NCBI GenBank assembly: GCA_030429445.1
Contig: JAUIFG010000005.1
Span: 1-54,098, forward strand
DNA length: 54,098 nt
Direction: 5' to 3'
Origin: a bacterium
GTDB lineage: Bacteria > Patescibacteriota > Saccharimonadia > Saccharimonadales > Saccharimonadaceae
Shown here: piece by piece, positions 10,557-38,342 of the stretch
Layout of the letters: every line of letters starts with the position of its first letter
Position numbering within the stretch: position 1 is the first letter of the stretch
Position numbers and translations under genes: made by a program
The notes under the pieces: model-generated
Told to the model about the DNA's origin: nothing
The model's input: only the letters and a program-made list of their open reading frames with translations
Databases searched by the model: none

Positions 10557-10617
10557 TCCAAAAGACTATATCAGATTTAGAACTCATCTCAAAACCACTC
10601 CTGTTACAATAGAGTGG

Positions 10618-11100
10618 ATGAGTCCCGCAAAGAAAAAATCAATCAAAAAACCATCCGCCATCGTCAACCGTCGAGCACGGTTTGATTATGCATTGGATGA
10701 TGAGCTCATTGTTGGACTCAGCCTTACAGGCCCAGAAGTCCGCGCTGCACGCGATGGGCACATTCAGCTGAAAGGTTCGTTTGTGACCATTCGAAACAAT
10801 GAACTATGGCTCAATAATGCCAGCTTTAGCTTGAAACTCAATGAAAAAGGTAAGTCTGATGCCCGTACAATTGATACCGAACCACGCAAATTATTGGCAC
10901 ATCGCAGACAAATTGACGCACTCGCTATCCGCAAAAAAGAAGGCCGATCCATCGTACCGACAAAATTACTAACAGCCGGCAGATTCATCAAGCTAGTCAT
11001 CGCAACAGGTAAGGGTAAAAAGAATTACGACAAACGCGAAACCCTCAAGCGTCGCGACCAAGAACGTGAATCACAACAAGCGATCAAACAATACAAATGA
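10618..11100 (+). CDS. smpB: SsrA-binding protein SmpB
   Basis: Trans-translation partner of tmRNA that rescues stalled ribosomes. It is 160 aa with the family fold: ARFDYALDDELIVGLSLTGPEV, the RNA-binding NNASF strand, HRRQIDAL, and the basic tail KGKKNYDKRETLKRRD that enters the mRNA channel. The frame is open far upstream, but ATG 10618 gives the family length and lies 7 nt after TGT-TACAAT (10602-10610), a leaderless arrangement. No tmRNA gene is visible in this window. Confidence 0.96.
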   Translation: MSPAKKKSIKKPSAIVNRRARFDYALDDELIVGLSLTGPEVRAARDGHIQLKGSFVTIRNNELWLNNASFSLKLNEKGKSDARTIDTEPRKLLAHRRQIDALAIRKKEGRSIVPTKLLTAGRFIKLVIATGKGKKNYDKRETLKRRDQERESQQAIKQYK

Positions 11101-36711: not shown

Positions 36712-37008
36712 TCAGAATGGCAAGATAGGTGATCCCGATCTGGGAAAAAGCTCTCTAAAACTTTCATACCCATCATCCTGCGACCTCTTTCCATCTCGTT
36801 TGACGAACGCTGCATAGATAGCAAGTGTCAAAAAGCCAATTCCCAGAACCCCAAAAGTACCTCCGATTAATATAGGTGCGCTTGTCAGCTCATTGGCAAA
36901 AATAATCAAACTGCCAATCCAAAACGCCAGTATGCTTATTCCAAAGAAGAACAAGCCCATCACATGCCGACCCGAAAGTCGAGGTAATCGAACGTGTAGC
37001 TGCATCAT
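36712..37008 (-). CDS. Small two-helix membrane protein, 98 aa
   Basis: It has a basic N-terminus (HVRLPRLSGRH), two membrane helices (about 17-38 and 46-68) and a charged tail (KRDGKRSQDDGYESFRELF). Function unknown. ATG 37008 is right after AGAGGAGA; the frame is open farther upstream but those codons precede the ribosome site. The leader has an 18-bp palindrome (37025-37042) beside the CGACAGAGGAG element, like the 36569 gene. Promoter at 37085-37112. Confidence 0.6.
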   Translation of the reverse strand: MMQLHVRLPRLSGRHVMGLFFFGISILAFWIGSLIIFANELTSAPILIGGTFGVLGIGFLTLAIYAAFVKRDGKRSQDDGYESFRELFPRSGSPILPF

Positions 37009-37024
37009 ATTTCTCCTCTGTCGG

Positions 37025-37042
37025 TGAGCCCATATGGGCTCA
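37025..37042 (-). repeat. 18-bp palindrome in the leader of the 98-aa gene
   Basis: TGAGCCCATATGGGCTCA is perfectly self-complementary. In RNA it could form a hairpin seven bases before the ribosome site; in DNA it could be an operator. Confidence 0.8.
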
Positions 37043-37084
37043 TGTAAACGTATCACCACAGCCGATGCCATAGCGCATAGCCAT

Positions 37085-37134: not shown

Positions 37135-37185
37135 AAAAAACCAAAAAGGACCAGGTAAGGGTGGGCATCACCTGGCCCTTTTTGG
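37135..37185 (-). terminator. Intrinsic terminator of the candidate RNA
   Basis: CCAAAAAGG-x-CCAGGT (from 37185) pairs with ACCTGG-x-CCTTTTTGG (to 37141), 15 of 16 bp, then TTTTTT (37140-37135). One of the strongest terminators in the window. Confidence 0.9.
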
Positions 37186-37386
37186 CCCTTCAACCCACCC
37201 GAATCGGGGGAGATTCTTTGAAGAAATCTCGAAGCGTGACCCACCTCACAACATATGGAGGTCCGCTGGTTAAAGGGGTTAGTAGCCGTGTAATGCGGTC
37301 AAGTCCGAAGACTCGTCCTCATAAGTGGAGGGTAGTTACTTATGAGAAACATTACACAGCACCTAACATATAAATTAGTTAGAATA
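37135..37386 (-). ncRNA. Candidate structured RNA of unknown family, about 245 nt
   Basis: No ORF with coding character. On the minus strand, GTTAG/CTAAC and GTGTAATG/CATTACAC stems enclose two hairpins: CTCATAAGT/ACTTATGAG (9 bp) and AGTC-TTCG-GACT, a UUCG tetraloop. Further 3' are CCTC/GAGG, GAGATT/AATCTC and CCCG-ATT-CGGG hairpins, then a strong intrinsic terminator ending in T6 at 37140-37135. I see no tmRNA, RNase P, SRP, 6S or common riboswitch consensus. The 5' end is uncertain; TATTCT at 37382-37387 is a weak -10. It diverges from dprA. Confidence 0.6.
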
Positions 37387-37406
37387 GGGGGTATAAGGTG
37401 CGATTA

Positions 37407-37481
37407 GATGGTATAATAACCATCAACCAGGCTCATTTTAGCACTGATTTGACATAATGTCAACACTTTTTGCAATAAATA
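37407..37481 (+). promoter_or_regulatory. dprA upstream region with two palindromes
   Basis: GATGGT-ATAATA-ACCATC (37407-37424) contains a TATAAT. TTGACAT-A-ATGTCAA (37449-37463) contains a TTGACA that could be the -35 of a promoter with its -10 near 37473-37481. Both look like operators overlapping promoter elements, so dprA may be repressed or activated by a dimeric regulator. Confidence 0.5.
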
Positions 37482-37484
37482 CCT

Positions 37485-38342
37485 ATGAAAATCAATCAAA
37501 TTTCACCCCTAGAAAATACATTCACCCAGATAGTTGGTAACATTGCGCTTGTGCCTAAAAAGTTATATTATAATGGCACATTACCAAGCAAACGTCCTCC
37601 AACTATAGCAATCGTTGGTAGTCGCAAACCAACCACCTATGGAACAGAGGTAACGACCCGAATCACAGAAGATCTCGCCAGACGAGGAGTTATTATTGTC
37701 AGCGGTATGGCAATTGGTATTGATAGCTTAGCGCACAAGGCTACATTAAACGTCAACGGAACAACAATCGCTGTGCAAGGCAATGGGCTTGCCAGCCTTT
37801 ATCCCAGCAGTAATCGTCAGCTAGGGCAGAACATTGTCGACAATGGCGGGGCAATCATCAGTGAATACGAGCCAGACGCACCGCCAATGAAGCATCGTTT
37901 TCTCGAAAGAAACCGTCTCGTAAGTGCCCTCTCTGACGCTGTTCTCGTTACTGAAGCTGCCGCTCGTAGCGGATCACTCAACACCGTCTCGCATGCACTC
38001 GAACAAGGCAAAGAAGTATTCGTCGTACCCGGCAATATTACCAGCCCACTTTCAACCGGATGCAATGCACTCCTCAAACAAGGCGCACACCCTGCAACAA
38101 GCGCCGAGGATATCTTAGAAATCATCGCCCCCCACTTGCTCAAACCTCAGACTCAGTTGGCACTTGGCGACAATCCTCTACAGACAAAAATTATCACATT
38201 ACTGACAAGCGGTATCCGTGATGGCGACGAACTCCAACGTCTGTCCAAAGAGAACGCCATGGCATTTTCTACAGAACTCACCATGATGGAGATTAACGGC
38301 CTCATCCGTAACCTCGGCGCTAATCAATGGACCCTCAAGTAA
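37485..38342 (+). CDS. dprA: DNA processing protein DprA
   Basis: Natural-transformation protein that loads RecA on incoming single-stranded DNA; 285 aa. The Rossmann-like domain shows IVGSRKPTTYG, IVSGMAIGIDSLAH, QGNGLASLYPSSN, ISEYEPD, RNRLVSALSDAVLV, AARSGSLNT and VPGNITSP, all DprA/Smf signatures. The C-terminal 60 residues resemble the winged-helix tail. No clear Shine-Dalgarno site. The palindromic promoter region suggests regulation. Confidence 0.95.
   Translation: MKINQISPLENTFTQIVGNIALVPKKLYYNGTLPSKRPPTIAIVGSRKPTTYGTEVTTRITEDLARRGVIIVSGMAIGIDSLAHKATLNVNGTTIAVQGNGLASLYPSSNRQLGQNIVDNGGAIISEYEPDAPPMKHRFLERNRLVSALSDAVLVTEAAARSGSLNTVSHALEQGKEVFVVPGNITSPLSTGCNALLKQGAHPATSAEDILEIIAPHLLKPQTQLALGDNPLQTKIITLLTSGIRDGDELQRLSKENAMAFSTELTMMEINGLIRNLGANQWTLK

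Follow-up and report, generated by a model that had tools for sequence, protein, structure and literature searches.

A predicted structured RNA between dprA and the next gene

The window analysed here is the whole stretch of 54,098 nt of contig JAUIFG010000005.1 (positions 1 to 54,098, forward strand) from assembly GCA_030429445.1, a member of the Saccharimonadaceae. On its minus strand, between dprA and the next gene, it holds a transcript-like unit with a near-consensus extended promoter, a strongly folded body and an intrinsic terminator. The original prediction, which described a multibranch domain, further hairpins and a T-run terminator at 37135-37386, was confirmed: the multibranch domain GUGUAAUG/CAUUACAC, the inner hairpin, the UUCG hairpin and the terminator are all present. 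However, the promoter (11 of 12 consensus positions) puts the start near 37428, so that the coordinates should be extended 5' by about 42 nt. The features, with helices (P), joining segments (J) and strands A to C numbered from the 5' end, are as follows.

37485..38342 (+), dprA, the divergent neighbour (Pfam PF02481, E 7e-71)
37435..37463 (-), promoter: -35 TTGACA (37463-37458), 17-nt spacer, -10 TAAAAT (37440-37435) with TG extension; the transcript start near 37428 is inferred
37135..37428 (-), the whole RNA, about 294 nt
37402..37428 (-), P1, 5' hairpin GGUUGAUGG...CCAUCUAAUC, variable in sequence, with a similar hairpin visible in relatives
37378..37401 (-), J1/2, conserved GCACCUUAUACCCCCUAUU followed by strand A (CUAAC, 37382-37378)
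37363..37367 (-), strand B (GUUAG), which pairs with A (P2) or with C (extension of P3)
37285..37360 (-), P3 domain, an 11-bp helix (37360-37350 with 37295-37285) enclosing P4 and, in this lineage, P5
37318..37346 (-), P4 hairpin, whose loop carries CCUCC (37331-37327)
37300..37315 (-), P5, the UUCG hairpin, lineage-specific
37278..37282 (-), strand C (CUAAC), partner of B and copy of A
37268..37277 (-), P6 5' strand CCCUUUAACC, pairing with 37195-37186
37196..37267 (-), P6-enclosed domain, here in its short form: P7 (GCGGACCUC/GAGGUGGGUCACGC) and lineage hairpins
37186..37195 (-), P6 3' strand GGUUGAAGGG
37142..37180 (-), P9, terminator hairpin plus U-run, with loop UGCCCACCC at 37167-37159
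36712..37071 (-), the next ORF, 119 aa, without a Pfam match and possibly a small membrane protein; a perfect 12-of-12 promoter (TTGACA-17-TATAAT) lies just downstream of it on the minus strand at 36690-36662

Folded alone, the 252 nt of the original prediction have an MFE of -107.2 kcal/mol, against -67.1 +/- 4.9 for 200 dinucleotide shuffles (z -8.2), and the 294-nt promoter-to-terminator transcript has a z of -8.5.

Conservation and covariation

The segment was found by blastn in 55 of 101 relatives. A MAFFT alignment of 29 homologues, made without structure, supports five helices (P2, P3, P4, P6 and P9): 97.3% of cells are standard pairs, 20 of 39 core pairs show double changes against 8.2 in shuffles, and sliding the 3' partner by 1-3 columns drops pairing to between 33-34% and 50%. 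In 98 homologues aligned to a covariance model, the corresponding figures are 97.4% and 33 of 39, and a mutual-information scan ranked the proposed pairs first. The latter alignment was fitted to the model and mostly gathered with a P6/P9 DNA pattern, so that its conservation figures for P6 and P9 are biased upward and it is secondary evidence. Double changes were detected in 9 of 11 P3 pairs in the structure-free alignment and, in the alignment of 98, in 11 of 11 P3 pairs, 6 of 10 P6 pairs and 10 of 10 P9 pairs; the P4 stem also covaries.

The loops are near-invariant. CCUCC is kept in 95 of 98 P4 loops, even where flanking letters change, and UGCCCACCC is kept in 95 of 98 P9 loops, and in 16 of the 18 sequences not gathered by that pattern. 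Within J1/2, TTATACCCCC is exact in 54 of 98. In contrast, the UUCG hairpin is absent or different in many relatives, and the P6-enclosed domain has two forms, short (26 of 98, including this genome) and long (72 of 98), so a subdomain was reduced or replaced within the family. A pseudoknot between CCCACCC of the P9 loop and GGGUGGG upstream is not supported, given that the loop is invariant while GGGUGGG changes in several relatives.

RNAalifold pairs strand B with strand C as an extension of P3, while A is a near-copy of C. Rare clades change B and C together (GUUGC/GCAAU, AUAAG/CUUAU and AUUAG/CUAAU), and at least five B:C pairs are possible in 85 of 98 sequences against 71 (maximum 77) in shuffles. 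The A:B and B:C pairings are mutually exclusive, and since most sequences are identical there, a strand exchange between them rests on a few variant clades; it is a reasonable inference, not a demonstration.

Distribution

The covariance model (R1) matched 126 of 149 genomes of the order Saccharimonadales (104 of 117 of good quality), with a single match in all but a handful, where the extra match is usually adjacent, overlapping or weak. Among 287 genomes of the phylum, searched with strict filters, it matched 22, exactly those listed from the same order, and none of the other 265. No blastn match to phages or plasmids was found.

INDEPENDENCE

A promoter of at least 10/12 consensus lies within 100 nt upstream in 62 of 79 homologues (shuffles 3.7%), with a 17-nt spacer in 57 of the 62 and TG in 60, and a U-run follows the terminator in 67 of 79. 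Neighbours were compared at 59 loci, 51 of them distinct. dprA stands divergently beside the RNA in 38; in 8 of the other 13, topA, usually the gene beyond dprA, is there instead, and the RNA is still present. The link to competence hinted at by the original prediction, which had noted that the RNA sits back-to-back with dprA, is therefore positional and not supported. The com genes including dprA have been reported not to contribute significantly to growth in a Tn-seq analysis (PMC10633639). No downstream gene is constant, and the commonest, pth (24 loci), is on the opposite strand.

Comparison with known RNA classes

At gathering scores, no Rfam family other than two tRNAs matched in the window, and lax scans of the locus and of 20 relatives gave only chance, microRNA-type matches. 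No earlier description was found in the open-licence literature searched. For raiA (RF03072, gathering score 101.3 bits), there was no match at E<=10 in this genome, none in 20 relatives with lax filters and none in 192 phylum genomes, although these searches included no genome known to carry raiA as a positive control. 6S RNA (RF00013) was not among the lax matches in the window or in the 20 relatives, and the architecture here is multidomain. The RNase P RNA (RF00010) match of this genome lies elsewhere (C5:4-123), cut by the contig end.

The window encodes SmpB (10585-11094, +; PF01668, E 7.8e-37). ARAGORN detected no tmRNA (RF00023) in the window or in this assembly, and no tRNA-like domain was found at the locus; however, tmRNA lies at another place in 12 of 12 relatives that carry this RNA, and an assembly gap is likely. 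SRP RNA (RF00169) was not detected in this genome or in 60 genomes of the order. Likewise, only fragmentary P-loop matches to the SRP54 GTPase domain, and no full-length match, were found in 60 genomes, and no Ffh/FtsY-like ORF was found in this genome, so the order appears to lack the signal recognition particle.

Possible roles of the RNA

The original prediction, an independent structured RNA of unknown class rather than a riboswitch, is supported by these data. We consider it likely that this is a new family of stand-alone, almost always single-copy structured RNA, near-universal in the Saccharimonadales, transcribed from its own extended -10 promoter and ended by a terminator hairpin that is itself part of the RNA. 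From its conservation, in the absence of any observed transcript, protein partner or phenotype, we infer that it acts in trans as a housekeeping-type RNA, most likely in a complex with protein, with P3 and P6 as the scaffold and the C-rich loops as the contact sites. During transcription, strand B (GUUAG) would first pair with A (CUAAC) and later with C (CUAAY), freeing the conserved UUAUACCCCCUAUUC stretch.

The main alternative, which we regard as possible but less likely, is a trans-acting antisense sRNA whose C-rich loops (CCUCC in P4, GCCCACCC in P9) pair with Shine-Dalgarno or other G-rich sites of mRNAs and block translation, as appears to be the case for C-rich sRNAs of Gram-positive bacteria such as RsaE/RoxS. 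CCUCC is the anti-Shine-Dalgarno core, and the loops are exposed in the covarying structure. Nevertheless, GGAGG lies before only 37 of 725 long ORFs, the longer complement GGAGGGU is not enriched (1 against 1), and the longest complements of the conserved segments in the genome are 11-12 nt, about what chance gives. Moreover, conservation of 230 or more nt of architecture exceeds what a seed-pairing sRNA needs. More speculatively, and with low probability, the RNA could be an order-specific global regulator or ribosome-associated factor that presents an imitation of the anti-Shine-Dalgarno end of 16S rRNA (the CCUCC loop) and sets its active form by co-transcriptional strand exchange.

A divergent form of a known housekeeping RNA (tmRNA, RNase P RNA, SRP RNA, 6S RNA or raiA) would fit the single copy, the order-wide presence and the promoter, as well as the undetected SRP RNA, but it is very unlikely given the searches described above (for raiA, without a positive control), including the missing SRP GTPases. 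A cis-regulatory leader of riboswitch or T-box type is the least likely, since, although the next ORF in the window and close genes in some relatives are on the same strand, the downstream gene differs between relatives, pth faces the other way and in several directly follows the terminator, and the terminator hairpin is always present.

The novelty lies in the RNA family, which has no detectable relative in Rfam; as a type, large stand-alone structured bacterial RNAs probably have precedents in raiA and OLE, to neither of which a match was found. Some Saccharibacteria can now be cultured and genetically modified (PMC10633639). An RNA family kept in one copy across an entire order of epibiotic, genome-reduced bacteria is probably important to them, given that these genomes have lost even detectable SRP parts but keep this RNA.
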